Below, in pieces: positions 18,091-24,782 of a stretch of DNA of 64,000 nucleotides. A program made the translations under genes and the position numbers. The DNA lies in contig NZ_WQFE01000004.1 in the NCBI RefSeq assembly GCF_013033965.1, forward strand, positions 310,001 through 374,000, in the 5' to 3' direction. The DNA is from Ruegeria atlantica (lineage in GTDB: Bacteria; Pseudomonadota; Alphaproteobacteria; Rhodobacterales; Rhodobacteraceae). Within the stretch, counting starts at the first letter, position 1, and each line of letters begins with the position of its first letter. The notes under the pieces are model-generated. The model saw only the letters and a list, made by a program, of their open reading frames with translations. It had not been told where the DNA came from and did no database searches.

Positions 18091-18305
18091 GGTGTTGCCA
18101 CCAGGATAGACTGGAAGGCTTGCGCCAGGATCACCGCCGCCACTCCATAGACCGCCAGCCACAGCCGTTTCTCCAACCGTTCCATCATCTCTTCGATCTG
18201 GTCCAACCGGCGACAGAGATGAGCGTGCTGGATTTCGGTCACCCTTTCATGCGCAGCCAGCCGCAGACCCGGCGCGCAATCGAACGGCGGATATCCCTCA
18301 CTCAT
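18087..18305 (-). CDS. GTA small head-formation protein (g3.5-like, rcc01685 family)
   Basis: A 72-aa protein: MSEGYPPFDCAPGLRLAAHERV, a short helical region (LDQIEEMMERLEKRLW), then a membrane-like segment (LAVYGVAAVILAQAFQSIL). It matches the small g3.5 gene between portal and protease in RcGTA-type clusters. The start sits in the portal stop (ATGAGTGA overlap). The hydrophobic tail suggests association with the inner membrane or the portal interior; its exact role is unclear. Confidence 0.85.
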   Translation of the reverse strand: MSEGYPPFDCAPGLRLAAHERVTEIQHAHLCRRLDQIEEMMERLEKRLWLAVYGVAAVILAQAFQSILVATP

Positions 18306-19458
18306 CGGCACGCTCCGGCAGCCCCAGCAGCGCGCGTTTTTCGGCGTCCGTCAGGAATTCGGCACGACTGACCCGCGCCCATTGCGCATCCCGCTCTGCC
18401 GACAGCGCCGGCACCTGATCCAGGTCGGGCTTCAGCATCAAATCCTCGCCGGTGAATCCGACCAGCCACTCCGACACCGCCGCCGCCACCCGCGTCACCA
18501 GGGGCAGAACGGTCAGGCGGTAAAACGCCCGGTTGGCCTCCTGATAGTTCGAATAGGTCGCGTCGCCCTGGATCCCCAGCAACATCGGCGGGACCCCAAA
18601 GGCCAGCGCGATCTCGCGGGCGGCGGCTTCCTTGGTCTTTTGAAACTCCATATCGGACGGAGAGAACCCCATCGGCTTCCAATCCAGCCCCCCCTCCAGA
18701 ACCATCGGTCGGCCCGCATTGCGTGCCCCGCGATAGTTCTGTTCGATCTCATCGGACAGACGCCGGAACTGATCCTCGGCCATCACCCCATGGCCATCGC
18801 CTTTCCACACCAGCGCCCCCGAAGGCCGCGCCGCATTGTCCAACAGCGATTTCGACCACCGCGACGCGCTGTTATGCACATCAATCGCCATCGCCGCCGC
18901 CTGCATCGGCGAGAACCCATAATGATCATCCTGCGGGTGGAACGATTTGATATGGCAGATATTTTCCGCCGCAAACCGGTGCTTCTTACCGCCCACTGCA
19001 TAGTCATACGCCTTGGGCCAGCCATCCGGCCCCGGCACCACGCTCATTCGGTCGGATCGCAGCACATGCAGCTCAACCGGCAACTCCTCGTCGGCCTGAA
19101 CCGCCTCAACATAGGCATTGCCCGACAACAGCAGCTGTCCAAACAGAGCTTCCATCAACTCCGCCCGCCCCTGCGCCGCATTCGGACGGCGCATCAGCGA
19201 CAGGATCGGATGCGCATCAAACCGCTGCGCCTGATCCTGCAGCACCAGGGGCAAAGCCGCCGCCGCCTCAGCAATCAGCTTGACCGAGCGAAACCCCACC
19301 GGGTTCCCCGAAAACCCCGTTCGCGTCAGCGACACCGCATCCCGGGGGCTCCACGCCACGCGCCCGCCCGTCTGCCACGCCACCACAGGCCCCGCCGCGC
19401 TCGCCTTCGCTTCGGGCGCTTCACCAGCCGATCCACGACGCAAGAAATCGAATACCAT
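18298..19458 (-). CDS. GTA portal protein (g3-like)
   Basis: A 386-aa HK97-family portal protein that forms the dodecameric DNA channel. Typical segments are GFRSVKLIAEAAAALPL, LLLSGNAYVEAVQ, ICHIKSFHPQDDHYGFSPMQAA, and KTKEAAAREIALAFGVPPMLLGIQGDATYSNYQEANRAFY. An AAAGGAG ribosome site lies 5-7 bases before the ATG. In this genome about 1 kb separates it from the terminase, because a reverse-strand gene sits in between, so GTA transcription must cross that gene in antisense. Confidence 0.95.
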   Translation of the reverse strand: MVFDFLRRGSAGEAPEAKASAAGPVVAWQTGGRVAWSPRDAVSLTRTGFSGNPVGFRSVKLIAEAAAALPLVLQDQAQRFDAHPILSLMRRPNAAQGRAELMEALFGQLLLSGNAYVEAVQADEELPVELHVLRSDRMSVVPGPDGWPKAYDYAVGGKKHRFAAENICHIKSFHPQDDHYGFSPMQAAAMAIDVHNSASRWSKSLLDNAARPSGALVWKGDGHGVMAEDQFRRLSDEIEQNYRGARNAGRPMVLEGGLDWKPMGFSPSDMEFQKTKEAAAREIALAFGVPPMLLGIQGDATYSNYQEANRAFYRLTVLPLVTRVAAAVSEWLVGFTGEDLMLKPDLDQVPALSAERDAQWARVSRAEFLTDAEKRALLGLPERADE

Positions 19459-19667
19459 CTGTGCTCCTTTCTGCCGCCGCTCTGCCCGGCTTGTTGAAAG
19501 GAGTTATGACGGAAAGAAGTTTAAGCCTTGGGAATGGGGCGTACGGGGGTTGGGCAACGGGATACAAAAAAATCTGCAGGCCTTCCTGTTAAGTCAGAGG
19601 CGTTGCATCGCTCAAAAAAGACGGCATAACTGCGGAAGAAAATTCACAAATATGAGTTTAAAAACAA

Positions 19668-20486
19668 ATGGATCAGCGCTGGGCACCAAACCGACTTTAT
19701 CGCTTTTGCAAACCCGAACATGAGCACTTTGAAGATGAGTTACACAATCTCAGCATGGGCAAAGTTTGGCTAAATCACATAAATCGAATGAATGATCCAT
19801 TTGAAGGGGCTTTAGTGCACGAGCCACAGTTATTTGATGAGTTTTCGTCGCAGATAACCCAAGTTGCCAAACACTGGCCACAAGTTACTCAGGTTACCAA
19901 AGAAAACTATGAAGAATACCTGCGGGGTGCCGATAAATTCGCAGCCCAACTGCTCACAAAAGCTGTAGCTGCGTGCTTTTCTCAATCTTGGAATAGTCCG
20001 CTTATGTGGGGGCACTATGCGAGTTCATTCGAAGGTTTTTGCTTAGAATACGAATACGATACGAGTGTGATGAGCGTAGAGGACATTCCGATGCATCAAG
20101 TGATCTATTGGCGAGAAACACCACCAAAAATAACCACCTTTGAATACTTCCGCTCTATGTATTACGAACAAGCTAGGCAATCTGAAGACGTATCTCTTAA
20201 CAGGACAGCGGCCCATCTACGTGTGCACACACTCGAGCCTGTTCTACTTGGGATGACGTCTAAGAGTTTCGAGTGGGTCTATGAACAAGAGTTTCGAATG
20301 GTCAGCGGCTTTCTCCAACCGGGTTACTACGAAATTCCACATTTCGGGCTAAAATCAGTGATTTTCGGGCATCGTGCCGAGCAATCTAAAATTGACGAAG
20401 TAAAGTATGTTCTTGGAGAAAGTTGTCGGTATTGGCAGATACAGATTCTCGGCGAACGTTATTCATTATCTAGAAGGCAAATCTAG
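19668..20486 (+). CDS. DUF2971-family protein inserted in the GTA cluster on the opposite strand
   Basis: A 272-aa soluble protein with DUF2971 hallmarks: VWLNHINRMNDPFEG (residues 33-47), the MWGHYASSFEGFCLEYE block (113-129) and FEWVYEQEFRM near 201-211. The family function is uncertain; members are often accessory genes. It is the only plus-strand gene within the 15-kb minus-strand GTA cluster and is visibly AT-rich: one 60-base line (19861-19920) has 24 G/C, versus 41 in a portal line (18781-18840). It ends 8 bases from the terL stop. Neither terL nor the portal gene is damaged. Horizontal acquisition is inferred. Confidence 0.88.
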   Translation: MDQRWAPNRLYRFCKPEHEHFEDELHNLSMGKVWLNHINRMNDPFEGALVHEPQLFDEFSSQITQVAKHWPQVTQVTKENYEEYLRGADKFAAQLLTKAVAACFSQSWNSPLMWGHYASSFEGFCLEYEYDTSVMSVEDIPMHQVIYWRETPPKITTFEYFRSMYYEQARQSEDVSLNRTAAHLRVHTLEPVLLGMTSKSFEWVYEQEFRMVSGFLQPGYYEIPHFGLKSVIFGHRAEQSKIDEVKYVLGESCRYWQIQILGERYSLSRRQI

Positions 20487-20494
20487 CTTTGTCT

Positions 20495-21910
20495 TTACAA
20501 ACTCCGCACCCTAGGCCGCCGATACACCCCCGCAGGCCCCACAACCAACTCATGCAGCGCCCAGACCAGCGCATCCACTCGATCCGGCGAGCCCTGCCCC
20601 TCGAACCCGTGCGCGGTCATCTGGCACATCTGCTCCTCCAGCGCGTCCAGTCCGGTCACATGGCTCACCCGCCCCTGCTCGTACAATGCCGCCACAGGCT
20701 CGGCCCGCGCGACCTTGCCGCGGGATGCCCGTACCGCGCGATAAGGGACCAGAGGGTCCACCTGCCGCACGACCTCTTCCACCAGTTGCCCACCCTGATT
20801 GACCTCGGCCACCAGCCGTTCGGCCCCCAATTCGTCCATCGCGTCAATTGCCGCCTGCGCCCAGCCTGCCGGACCAACGCCCTGCACCGTCCGATCCGCC
20901 AACACATAGGCGCGCCATTCTTCGGGCGGCCCCTTCACCTGAGCCCCCACGACCACGATCCCGCAGGCATCCGCATCCGCCCCCGCCGTCACCGCCGGAT
21001 CCAACGCCACCACTATACGGTCCAACTCAGGTACCTTCTCAACTCGCGACGCCTCCAACATCGAACCCGTCCAAAGCGCCCCCTCGGCATCCGACAACAG
21101 CACTCCGTCCAACTCTTGCCGCCCTAGCCGCGTGCCCGCATAGCGCGCGCGCACCTCCTCCAGAAACGACTCCGCCAGATTGGCCCGGTTCGCCTCGGTT
21201 GGCGCATGGGTCTGCGCGGTGGACGGAGAGGCTAGCAGATCCTTCAAAACCTTCACATTGCGCGGCGTGGTCGTCACACAGACCCGCGGCTGATCCCCCA
21301 GCCGCAACGCAAATTGCAACATATCCCAGGTCTCGCTGGCCTTCTTCCACTTGGCCAACTCATCGACCCAGGCGGCATCGAATTGAGGGCCGCGCAGCCC
21401 TTCGGGATCATGCGCCGAAAACGCCTGCGCCTCGGCACCGTTGGGCCATACCAGTTTCCGCTCTGACGCCTTCCACACAGGTCGCCGATCCGGCGGCGAA
21501 CACTGCAAAATCCCGCTATCGCCAAAGATCATCACATCGCGCACCTGATCAAACGTCTCGCCGACCAAGGCCACCCGACACGCCTCACCACGATCCAACG
21601 GCAAAGACCCTTCAACCATCGACCGTACCCATTCGGCTCCTGCCCGCGTCTTACCGGCCCCACGCCCGCCCATGATCACCCACGACCGCCAATCGCCCTT
21701 GGGCGGCAATTGATGCGGCAACGCCCAGAACTCAAACAGGAAAGGGAGGGCACACAGCCCTCCCTCCCCGATCTCACTCAGAAATCGGTCCCGAACCGCA
21801 GCATCGGCGGAGGCGAGCCAACCTGCACCCGATTTCAAATCGAGCGCGCTCAAGGTCGAGCGCATACCCCCCTTGGGCAATTCCGGCTTGTCTGTGATGT
21901 TGTTCGACAA
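20495..21910 (-). CDS. GTA large terminase subunit (g2-like)
   Basis: A 471-aa DNA-packaging motor. The Walker A motif GGRGAGKT is at residues 81-88, and an acidic Walker B-type region is PQFDAAWVDELAKW. The nuclease domain lies in the C-terminal half (IVVALDPAVTAGADADACGIVVVG with catalytic Asp). The start is TTG at 21910, with GGAGA 6 bases before it; ATG at 21865 is an alternative. The C-terminus is intact, ending 8 bases before the reverse DUF2971 gene. GTA terminases package random host DNA by headful cutting. Confidence 0.95.
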   Translation of the reverse strand: MSNNITDKPELPKGGMRSTLSALDLKSGAGWLASADAAVRDRFLSEIGEGGLCALPFLFEFWALPHQLPPKGDWRSWVIMGGRGAGKTRAGAEWVRSMVEGSLPLDRGEACRVALVGETFDQVRDVMIFGDSGILQCSPPDRRPVWKASERKLVWPNGAEAQAFSAHDPEGLRGPQFDAAWVDELAKWKKASETWDMLQFALRLGDQPRVCVTTTPRNVKVLKDLLASPSTAQTHAPTEANRANLAESFLEEVRARYAGTRLGRQELDGVLLSDAEGALWTGSMLEASRVEKVPELDRIVVALDPAVTAGADADACGIVVVGAQVKGPPEEWRAYVLADRTVQGVGPAGWAQAAIDAMDELGAERLVAEVNQGGQLVEEVVRQVDPLVPYRAVRASRGKVARAEPVAALYEQGRVSHVTGLDALEEQMCQMTAHGFEGQGSPDRVDALVWALHELVVGPAGVYRRPRVRSL

Positions 21911-22118
21911 AGCTTGTCTCCACTTTCTGACAACTTCGGATCAGCCCCTCTAACTGCCCGAGTTGCTTGCCTGTACCGGCAAGATCTGCATCCTCCCCGG
22001 CTCCGATCTGCCTGCGCAATTCTTCCGCTGCTTGGCGCAGACCGCGAATGGATGTCTCAAGCGACTGCAAAAGTTCCGCCGTCTGGGACATCCGCTCTTC
22101 CGGGGTAATCAAAGTCAT
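21774..22118 (-). CDS. GTA small terminase-like protein (g1-like)
   Basis: A 114-aa protein, first of the cluster, mostly helical (SQTAELLQSLETSIRGLRQAAEELRRQIGAG, KQLGQLEGLIRSCQKVE). It corresponds to RcGTA g1, described as the small terminase subunit. It overlaps terL by 137 bases, unusually long for this cluster, so its last 45 residues (Arg/Cys-rich) are encoded inside terL and may not be conserved. ATG 22118 is used; ATG 22091 is an alternative start. Confidence 0.82.
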   Translation of the reverse strand: MTLITPEERMSQTAELLQSLETSIRGLRQAAEELRRQIGAGEDADLAGTGKQLGQLEGLIRSCQKVETSFVEQHHRQAGIAQGGYALDLERARFEIGCRLARLRRCCGSGPISE

Positions 22119-22252: not shown

Positions 22253-22656
22253 TGAGTTACGCAACACCGCCGCAACACAGATCGCGCTCAACCTTTACTA
22301 AAACTTAGTTTCTTCCTTCCAAAGCAAGGGAAACTGCGCATCCGTGTGCAGCACATCGGCTTTACCAGCCTACTCCGGATCAGTTCTCCAATTCGTGCCG
22401 GCAGATCGAGAAGCAAAAACAAAACGCGCGCTCCCGTGTCGCCATGTTTCTCCATAAATGCGTCTTCAGTCACCAGCTCCTGCTTGGCCCGTTCGAACCT
22501 GAACGGTACGCTGGAGTACCGACAATTCAATCGTTTGTTTTGCATACGTATACTCTCGGCACAGAAGTTCGACGCACTGATTGGCGCCTCTGGTAGGGCA
22601 CCTAGCTTAGCCTGAAATTACAGGTCACCTTTCCTTCTGAAAATGGAATGCTCTGA
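22253..22656. other. Intergenic region upstream of the GTA promoter
   Basis: About 400 bases without a convincing gene. A minus-strand ORF at 22288-22545 (85 aa) has no visible ribosome site and no recognisable family, and I do not call it. The region is AT-richer than its surroundings. Regulators of GTA expression would be expected to bind here, but no clear long palindrome was found. Confidence 0.5.
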
Positions 22657-23244
22657 AAGGATCTTTTCACTTCTGAAAAACCTAGTAATTGGGACGGTCT
22701 TCGGCTCTTTCTGTCTGTGGCGCGTGAAGGCGGCCTGTCCGCCGCAGCCCGTGCAACAGGTAGCAGCGCGCCGACGCTTGGCCGTCGCATGCTGGAGTTG
22801 GAGCGCAGATTGGGATGTGGGCTCTTCCTCCGCCACGACCGAGGTTATGAACTGACCCCAAAAGGTCAGGAATTACTGAGAGAACTGAAGCCAATAGAAA
22901 ACAAACTGGCCCGGTTGACGGCACCTGCCCCGGATTAATGGATCAAAGTCCTGGCTGATACGCCGTCGGCTCGCTGGTTGGACAAGCGGATCGGCAGCAA
23001 TGCAGTATGCGAGGTCAACTCGCCCCGTAGCAGTCTGGACCTCGCCTTGGCCGGTTTGGGTATTGCTGTTTTGCCAACCTTCATCGGGGACACGCACGGC
23101 ACTCTTTTGCCCGTCGGTCGAATCATTTCGGAATTGACCCACGACCAATGGCTTGTAACGCATCAAGACGATCGAAACCTACCCGAGGTTCGCCGGACCA
23201 TCGAAAGAATGCGCACAAGCTTGCAACGACGCCAGAACATCTAA
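22657..23244 (+). pseudogene. Decayed LysR-family regulator gene
   Basis: A single frame reads WDGLRLFLSVAREGGLSAAAR..., the LysR helix-turn-helix, through LGCGLFLRHDRGYELTPKGQ to an in-frame TAA at 22936. It then continues with WIKVLADTPSARW, SPRSSLDLALAGLGIAVLPTF and a C-terminal LysR effector-domain tail ending at 23244. There is no start codon at the expected place, one stop lies inside, and roughly 100 residues of the effector domain are missing, giving about 195 codons instead of about 295. It is probably a dead gene. The N-terminal fragment could still be made from GTG 22717, but it lacks the start of the HTH. Confidence 0.8.
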
Positions 23245-23519
23245 GAGTGTGACCGGCAAAAGCTTGACAAAACGGCACATAAGCCTCATGTGCCTCCCAA
23301 CACAGCGCTGACGCGTGAGCATCGGTGGGCATAACCGCCCCACAGCGCCCCATAATCTCCAGTTCCCCTTCACGCAGGGTTCTTGACGCGACGGCCGGAT
23401 GACGCAGGGTTCGCTTGCACGTCCCGAGGTCTCGCAGAACCCTTGCCGGTCACGTGTTGCGTGGCCACACACGTCTTGTTCGCGCGGTTATTGCCGTGCG
23501 GATCACAAAGGATAGTTAC

Positions 23520-24782
23520 TTGTTCGACTTCGACATGCTGGGTCTTGCGCCAGCCCTTAATGATGCACTGAAACGTGCCAATTTCTCACAACCGACACCG
23601 ATCCAGAACCAGGCCATTCCGCTGGCTCTGAACGGCCACGACATCCTGGGCCTGGCGCAGACCGGCACCGGCAAGACACTGGCATTTGGCCTGCCTCTGA
23701 TCGACCACTTGCTGGCGCAGCCCGGCAAACCCGCGCCTAAAACTGCCAAGGCTCTGATCCTTGCCCCCACCCGCGAACTGGTCAACCAGATCGCGGAAAG
23801 CCTGCGCAATCTGACAGGCAAGACCAAGCTGCGCGTGGCCACTGTGGTAGGGGGCCAGTCGATCGGCAAGCAGATCTCGTTCCTGTCGCGCGGCACCGAT
23901 ATTCTGGTCGCCACGCCCGGGCGTTTGATCGATCTGATGGAACGCCAAGCGGTCGACCTCGGTCAGGTGCGGCATCTGGTTCTGGACGAAGCAGACCAGA
24001 TGCTGGACATGGGTTTCATCCATGCCCTGCGCAAAATTGCACCCAAACTGGGTACCCCGCGCCAGACCATGCTGTTCTCGGCCACCATGCCGAAGCAGAT
24101 GGAAGAGATCAGCCAAGCCTATCTGACCAACCCGCACCGGGTGCAAGTCTCTCCTCCCGGCAAGGCCGCAGACAAGATTACCCAATCGGTGCATTTCCTC
24201 ACTCGGGCAGAGAAACCCGCGAAGCTGCGAGAAGTTCTTTCGGCAGATGTGAGTGCGTTGACGTTGGTCTTTTCAAGAACCAAGCACGGTGCTGAGCGCC
24301 TGATGAAAGACCTTGTCAAAGACGGGTTCAACGCCGCTTCAATTCATGGCAACAAAAGCCAGGGTCAGCGCGACCGCGCGATCAAGGCATTTCGCGCGGG
24401 TGAAATTAACGTGCTTGTTGCCACCGATGTAGCGGCCCGAGGCATCGACATCCCGGGCGTGGCCTATGTCATCAATTACGACCTGCCGGAGGTGCCGGAC
24501 AACTATGTGCACCGTATCGGCCGGACCGCACGCGCCGGACGCGAGGGAGAAGCTATTGCATTCTGCTCCCCTGATGAATTGGATCAATTCCGCCAGATTC
24601 AAAAACTCATGAAAATCGAAATTCCCGTGGCAAGCGGCACCATGCCTGAGCACGCAGAGCCTAAAAAGCCCCGCAACCGCGGTGGGTTCCGGGGACGCGG
24701 AGTCAAACCCAAGGCGGCAAACGCAGGCCAAAAACCTGCACAGTCCAAGCGACGCCGCCCGCGTCGGCGCCCTGCTGCGTAA
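23520..24782 (+). CDS. DEAD-box ATP-dependent RNA helicase
   Basis: A 420-aa RhlE-type helicase. Motifs in order: Q motif (FSQPTPIQNQAIP), I (AQTGTGKT), Ia (PTRELVNQI), II (DEADQMLDMGF), III (SATMP), IV-V (ATDVAARGIDIPGV) and VI (HRIGRTARAGREG). The C-terminal tail is basic and Gly/Arg-rich (GGFRGRGVKPK...KRRRPRRRPAA), suited to RNA binding. The TTG at 23520 (LFDFDMLGL) fits the family N-terminus and has AAGGA 7 bases before it. The longer upstream reading is not supported. An intrinsic terminator follows. Confidence 0.93.
   Translation: MFDFDMLGLAPALNDALKRANFSQPTPIQNQAIPLALNGHDILGLAQTGTGKTLAFGLPLIDHLLAQPGKPAPKTAKALILAPTRELVNQIAESLRNLTGKTKLRVATVVGGQSIGKQISFLSRGTDILVATPGRLIDLMERQAVDLGQVRHLVLDEADQMLDMGFIHALRKIAPKLGTPRQTMLFSATMPKQMEEISQAYLTNPHRVQVSPPGKAADKITQSVHFLTRAEKPAKLREVLSADVSALTLVFSRTKHGAERLMKDLVKDGFNAASIHGNKSQGQRDRAIKAFRAGEINVLVATDVAARGIDIPGVAYVINYDLPEVPDNYVHRIGRTARAGREGEAIAFCSPDELDQFRQIQKLMKIEIPVASGTMPEHAEPKKPRNRGGFRGRGVKPKAANAGQKPAQSKRRRPRRRPAA

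Follow-up and report, generated by a model that had tools for sequence, protein, structure and literature searches.

The gap between the large terminase gene (terL) and the portal gene of the Ruegeria GTA is a standing, genus-wide slot for accessory genes. It is occupied in all 38 genus genomes in which terL lies adjacent to the portal gene, by 554-2968 nt of sequence, and no two of these slot sequences are alike. In the stretch of Ruegeria atlantica DNA analysed here (64,000 nt, hereafter the window), the slot holds a single gene of the family DUF2971, whose product is predicted to be a lone ADP-ribosyltransferase-type protein.

Results

The slot in the window

The head cluster in the window is of the RcGTA type (type I), with g1, terL, portal, g3.5, protease, capsid and g6-g8 in order and on one strand. 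Both genes that border the slot are intact: terL (g2; 20495..21910, minus strand), the putative left homology arm, encodes 471 aa with Terminase_6N and Terminase_6C, and the portal gene (g3; 18298..19458, minus strand), the putative right homology arm, encodes 386 aa with Phage_portal. The ORF in the g1 position, named by that position (21774..22118, minus strand), overlaps terL by 137 nt. The closest named terL records, from 94% down to 87% identity, are nearly all from Ruegeria.

The slot extends from the terL stop to the portal ATG (19459..20494, 1036 nt). Its G+C content is 45.2%, compared with 62.0% and 63.5% in the flanking GTA stretches and 57.8% in the whole window, which bears out the composition contrast noted in the first-pass annotation of this DNA. 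The DUF2971 gene (19668..20486, plus strand) is a complete ORF that starts with ATG and encodes 272 aa, convergent with terL (8 nt from stop to stop) and divergent from the portal gene. The earlier description of a complete plus-strand gene splitting intact terL and portal genes is therefore correct, while its wording as a 'reverse-strand' gene is not, since it is the GTA cluster that lies on the minus strand. Upstream of the gene is a variable stretch (19564..19667, plus strand), probably its promoter region, with no sigma-70 match; a promoter and terminator scan of 19200-20800 gave nothing above shuffled sequences. The right border is a conserved portal leader of ~105 nt (19459..19563, minus strand), which begins with CGTTGC on the minus strand and carries the portal ribosome-binding site; no convincing copy of a similar sequence was found elsewhere in the window. 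As the first-pass annotation had reported, the insert has neither a recombinase ORF nor a clear repeat at its edges: the one direct repeat detected, a pair of 15 nt, lies within the DUF2971 gene, and no inverted repeats of at least 14 nt were found.

Occupancy across the genus

We searched for terL in 54 genus genomes, one genome per species. It reaches the portal gene in 38 of them (in one, G066, with a terL frameshift), is truncated or decayed in 14 and is missing from G011, while G030 has a complete terL with the portal gene on another contig. Most of the 38 occupied slots measure 0.55-1.55 kb, and their G+C content (0.45-0.63, median 0.50) is to be compared with a median of 0.66 in terL. 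Outside the genus, the terL-portal gap is 65-240 nt in 47 of 50 measurable named loci, the others being L092 (433 nt), L086 (515 nt) and L113 (624 nt). These 50 are the loci with a portal gene near terL among the 53 of 80 named loci that lie outside the genus set; the count omits the Ruegeria duplicates L135, L137 and L139, as well as one Thalassococcus and two Roseovarius loci (L101, L111 and L118), in which terL is intact and no portal gene is found within ~6 kb downstream. Among the 50, Ruegeria spongiae (L069, 182 nt) bears the genus name at NCBI but has no slot.

Relative to other genera, the occupied junction is thus an insertion, as the first-pass annotation had proposed, and DUF2971 is absent from the other 37 genus slots, so the same gene does not occupy this position in all close relatives. 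The nearest DUF2971 relative in the genus (G010, 34-36% identity) lies on a contig other than that of its terL remnant. The proposal of a recent acquisition was not supported in that form: because all 38 genus GTAs with adjacent terL and portal genes are occupied, the site is not newly invaded in the window genome, and the nearest species sampled sets the only bound on the timing. A single recent insertion was rejected on the same count. As the nearest genera are geneless at the junction and the contents differ by species, the origin of the slot lies at the base of the genus or close to it.

The remainder of the cluster is fixed. Across 25-29 genus loci, the lengths of the seven other g1-g8 junctions have standard deviations of 0-6 nt, against 427 nt for terL-portal, and the capsid-g6 gap, itself non-coding (153-163 nt), never gains an insert in the genus loci measured. 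The slot therefore does not reflect a general looseness of the cluster. With fixed flanking genes and contents that are unrelated between genomes, the junction has the organization of a hotspot or moron locus.

Genomes in which the cluster has been lost or broken were recorded separately. Ten of the 54 (G004, G067, G025, G061, G073, G001, G026, G021, G016 and G072; loci L121-L128, L130 and L131) share an internal GTA deletion that joins TerL residue 185 to the tail protein in the gp15 position (WVDEL running into GCAAIDKG), and no GTA portal remains in the fusion genomes. Nine of the ten encode the fusion as a single open frame (835-838 aa). These nine are dispersed across the terL tree (8 changes, against a mean of 8.4 after shuffling), yet dN/dS is 0.078 for the TerL portion and 0.056 for gp15 (15 of 28 gp15 pairs usable). 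The fusion may be a GTA-null allele that recurs or recombines, or else a chimera that has been retained. An intein, considered for terL open frames of 845 aa, was rejected, as translation showed an in-frame TerL-gp15 deletion chimera. Four further genomes (G068, G018, G036 and G010; L120, L129, L132 and L133) have lost parts of terL and the GTA cluster through other, differing deletions or through decay. In G030 (L142, L143), terL and the portal gene, the latter with its leader element, lie on separate contigs, each among unrelated genes, which indicates that a rearrangement broke the cluster at the slot.

Cargo genes and selection

Clustering by blastp at 1e-3 distinguished at least 23 unrelated cargo families among the 38 slots, coded on both strands; eight families are present in 2-5 genomes each (22 loci), and in 15 loci the main cargo was seen once. 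An ORF is present in 37 slots, whereas the L036 slot has none of at least 75 aa. Cation efflux (5) and short-chain dehydrogenase (SDR; 4) genes are the commonest, and the others include SUKH (2), luciferase-domain (2), DUF4189 (2), methyltransferases, a nucleotide cyclase, isochorismatase, Hint and DUF2971; an immunity-type domain, as SUKH also is, resembles Imm33 in one protein. The longest slot ORF is antiparallel to terL in 25 of 37 slots and runs in the same direction in 12, so the opposed orientation, in which the antisense interference raised in the first-pass annotation might arise, is common. In all ten homologous cargo pairs tested, dN/dS was 0.075-0.233; the cargo genes are constrained and under purifying selection.

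Protein scans covered 39 of the 41 cargo ORFs, two short L054 ORFs being left out. At most five of these 39 proteins match PADLOC models, among them the cyclase (PycC), one protein matching mad2 and two matching PDC-M40A, and none matches a recombinase family. With no recombinase in the cargo and no border repeats in the window, the slot contents do not belong with integron-like cassettes or transposons.

Slot edges and signs of recombination

Between genomes with different cargo, homology stops at the terL stop codon and resumes at the ~105-nt element before the portal gene, which starts with CGTTGC and is partly conserved in other genera; both edges fall at the same place in all 38 slots. 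In the window, this element (19459-19563; GTTGC...CCGTACG) is non-coding, and several other genera carry the near-palindrome CCACCGTACGGTGG. It may serve the portal genes as a promoter or an operator.

In three composite slots (L134, L018 and L054), older units lie behind displaced terL 3' ends of 100-156 nt, with 81-92% identity. In L134, new sequence is followed by ~100 nt of terL 3' end and then by a complete unit of the L012/L027 type; in L018, new sequence precedes a ~150-nt terL end and a complete L036-type unit; and L054 contains a pair of displaced terL ends together with a right border that is likewise displaced. Such composites are the leftovers expected of terL-anchored recombination with an illegitimate join on the other side. 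Moreover, L017 and L023, a close pair with different cargo (identity 0.92-0.99 from ~8 to 2 kb upstream), differ at 67 of 305 third positions in the 3' part of terL beside the slot, as against 19 of 166 in the 5' part (p 0.007) and 45 of 386 in the portal gene (p 0.0004); no such difference between the two terL halves was seen over all 703 pairs (segment medians). L022 and L134 form a diverged pair, with 82-85% identity in the flanking blocks, yet they are 97-100% identical over a tract that runs from -116 to +884 of terL; DNA therefore moves between species at the GTA locus. Together, the displaced terL ends and the diverged terL tract beside the slot in L017/L023 suggest that cargo enters by recombination anchored in terL.

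Sharing a cargo gene was not accompanied by more similar flanks (18 pairs, SDR-clade pairs left out; median percentiles 0.26-0.50), so recent flank-borne transfer between the sampled species was not seen. Cargo dS (0.35-1.93) is of the same order as terL dS (median 0.55), and some shared cargo may thus be of old, vertical descent. The terL tree, on which the 22 shared-family loci need 14 changes, has weak resolution. Given the flank test, the dS values and the weak tree, the exchanges seem to be old or overwritten.

Beside the cluster, ~1 kb just upstream of g1 (window ~22290-23600; L239-L244) could not be aligned in any of the three genome pairs compared, making it a possible second variable site.

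The DUF2971 protein

The window protein matches PF11185 (DUF2971; 33.8 bits, cut-off 22, residues 113-211), the sole Pfam family found, and the PADLOC candidate PDC-S31 over residues 1-268 (E 1.3e-28), while NCBIfam yielded no family and the search for a solved-structure relative by sequence yielded none (best E 0.42). A viral scan with the single window protein found no relative; an IMG/VR scan with an alignment found a DUF2971 relative encoded in 199 of 292 pattern-matched stretches. From 80 viral loci, we retained 60 with a complete ORF of 190-360 aa; alignment A2 combined 58 viral sequences with the window protein, and alignment A3 took 54. No neighbour family recurs in more than five of the 58 viral loci, the commonest neighbour reading, from its sequence, as an integrase. 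DUF2971 is thus a lone gene without a recurrent partner, resembling a phage moron. On a Vibrio furnissii plasmid (L149:2403-3311), a DUF2971 gene lies near genes for a CI-type repressor, a P-loop NTPase-fold protein and a tyrosine recombinase, a setting such as a prophage cargo gene would have.

Thirteen residues are invariant in the 59 sequences (N42, D43, M113, W114, H116, Y117, Y147, K199, W203, E206, E208, R210 and G234). E206, E208, R210, K199, H116 and Y117 are candidates, and candidates only, for NAD+ binding or ADP-ribose transfer; the codons of residues 206-210 (E-x-E-x-R; 20283..20297, plus strand) would form the putative catalytic site.

AlphaFold2 gave models of the window protein (pLDDT 87.7) and of a compact relative, L216 (pLDDT 93.9). 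Foldseek gave no significant match for the window model. On re-alignment with VIA-align, the top four of 294 chains for the window model were all ADP-ribosyltransferases, namely DarT (Z 7.0 and 6.0), Pierisin-1 (3.6) and the SdeA mART (3.3). The top nine of 575 chains for L216 were Tpt1 (Z 8.3 over 112 residues, 2.7 A), seven DarT rows (Z 7.3-6.4) and KptA (6.3); Tpt1/KptA we take to belong to the ADP-ribosyltransferase superfamily. These Z values are mostly under 8, and at lower Z unrelated folds also appear (gelsolin-type domains, splicing endonucleases and Holliday-junction resolvases). On the strength of the VIA-align matches, with none significant in Foldseek, DUF2971 is predicted to have an ADP-ribosyltransferase-type fold.

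DarT and Tpt1/KptA are the best structural matches of the two models taken together. DUF2971, however, has no sequence-profile link to DarT, and no DarG-like partner was seen: hhalign against eight DarT (PF14487) proteins gave a probability of 0.7%, which limits the claim to the fold and rejects DarT membership by sequence, and no macrodomain antitoxin is adjacent, the window neighbours being terL and portal. The conserved motifs of DUF2971 (N-D-P, M-W-x-H-Y and W-x-Y-E-x-E-x-R) also differ from those of DarT and Tpt1/KptA. According to the DarT report, it was modelling that revealed DarT itself, sequence homology not being evident, and the enzyme depends on the conserved glutamate E160 (PMC5179494).

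The most likely role of DUF2971 would be anti-phage or stress protection through NAD+-dependent modification of nucleic acid or protein. A defence function as such is a guess to which the PDC-S31 match lends support, PDC-S31 being a candidate system only, for which we found no experimentally established role and whose model covers the window protein; combined with the predicted fold, this match makes the defence role raised in the first-pass annotation plausible. An mRNA ADP-ribosyltransferase in defence has a reported precedent in CmdTAC (PMC11618068).

Discussion

In our judgement, the observations are probably best explained jointly by a standing slot, recombination paired in terL and moron-like cargo, here DUF2971. 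The DNA that brings in new cargo would pair with terL through homologous recombination, and its far end would be joined with or without homology; after an illegitimate join, the old unit, consisting of a terL 3' end and the old cargo, would be left as a displaced copy. These steps are supported, not proven. Selection would keep terL and the 105-nt portal leader, so that the non-coding gap between them is presumably the permissive place in the operon, and the cargo may be kept for its own benefit, in the manner of phage morons.

RcGTA packages DNA pieces of ~4 kb. Since most slots, at 0.55-1.55 kb, would fit with both flanks in GTA-sized DNA, GTA particles may swap the slot. A more far-reaching and tentative reading, to which we assign a rather low probability, is that the slot is a cargo bay filled and emptied by the GTA itself, with GTA genes as homology arms; the cargo would then amount to about one gene because cargo and terL/portal arms must fit one particle.

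We also weighed explanations in which the slot is less, or something other, than a site of exchangeable moron-like cargo. If the gap were simply the only long insert-tolerant non-coding stretch, with chance arrivals drifting until replaced, one would understand the ORF-less slot of L036, the debris in composite slots and the truncated terL in 14 of 54 genomes; it is nevertheless an unlikely account, given the low dN/dS in all ten cargo pairs, the ORF in 37 of 38 slots and the capsid-g6 gap that, equally non-coding, stays empty. The idea that the cluster shelters anti-phage or conflict genes in particular, DUF2971 included, draws on the PDC-S31 match of the window protein, on the matches to PycC, mad2 and PDC-M40A (two) and on the SUKH (2) and Imm33-like (1) domains. 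Yet at most 5 of 39 cargo proteins match PADLOC, and cation efflux (5) and short-chain dehydrogenase (4) genes are more frequent than any other cargo, which leaves a defence locus with a slim chance. Of the protected site, moron or defence cargo envisaged in the first-pass annotation, moron-like cargo in a tolerated site fits, whereas a defence island does not.

The sharp, invariant edges of all 38 slots could be read as the work of a site-specific element, such as an integron-like cassette or transposon, that inserts genes at the end of terL. Constraint on terL and the portal leader explains these edges, the 100-156 nt of displaced terL end argue for homology within terL, and neither a recombinase-family match among the 39 cargo proteins nor a border repeat in the window was found; we consider such an element very improbable. 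That the cargo genes are morons left over from the phage progenitor of the GTA and differentially lost is, in our view, hardly to be believed: the nearest genera are geneless at this junction (47 of 50 loci at 65-240 nt) and the content differs between species, although Agrobacterium and Rhizobium GTA clusters do have a phage-like lysozyme gene between terL and portal, read in that study as a prophage trace (PMC11409702). Those clusters resemble Ruegeria in having a non-GTA gene within the head cluster at the same junction; they have, as described there, one lysozyme gene, whereas in Ruegeria a different, unrelated gene is found in nearly every species.

The standing slot with terL-paired recombination shares features with other variable loci. 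Phage moron loci and chromosomal hotspots have fixed flanks, unrelated accessory genes of low G+C content and no mobile-element gene at the site, and in all of this the Ruegeria slot is alike; it differs in lying inside the head operon of a domesticated GTA and in usually holding one gene. In the displaced-tip loci of polymorphic toxins such as Rhs and CdiA, a new unit joins the 3' part of the anchor gene, and the old unit remains downstream with a 3'-end remnant. The same 3'-end joining and old-unit remnant are seen in the Ruegeria slot, but the cargo is a separate gene, and the TerL protein remains complete, with no change of length.

GTA head clusters are commonly regarded as conserved operons. 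Our search of the open-access literature brought up no account of a variable terL-portal slot in Ruegeria, and a literature search returned a single paper on the DUF2971 family, which now gains a testable enzymatic hypothesis. The slot indicates that, much as phages harbour morons, a GTA locus can harbour cargo of use to the host, and it allows direct tests of whether a GTA gains selective value from the genes it carries and whether GTA-mediated recombination shapes the GTA's own locus. Should the slot indeed be a cargo bay, the GTA would spread a menu of single accessory genes, including a new family of lone ADP-ribosyltransferases, through the genus. GTA-null deletion alleles would then be able to spread by that same bias in size, a possibility at which the recurrence of the TerL-gp15 junction hints.
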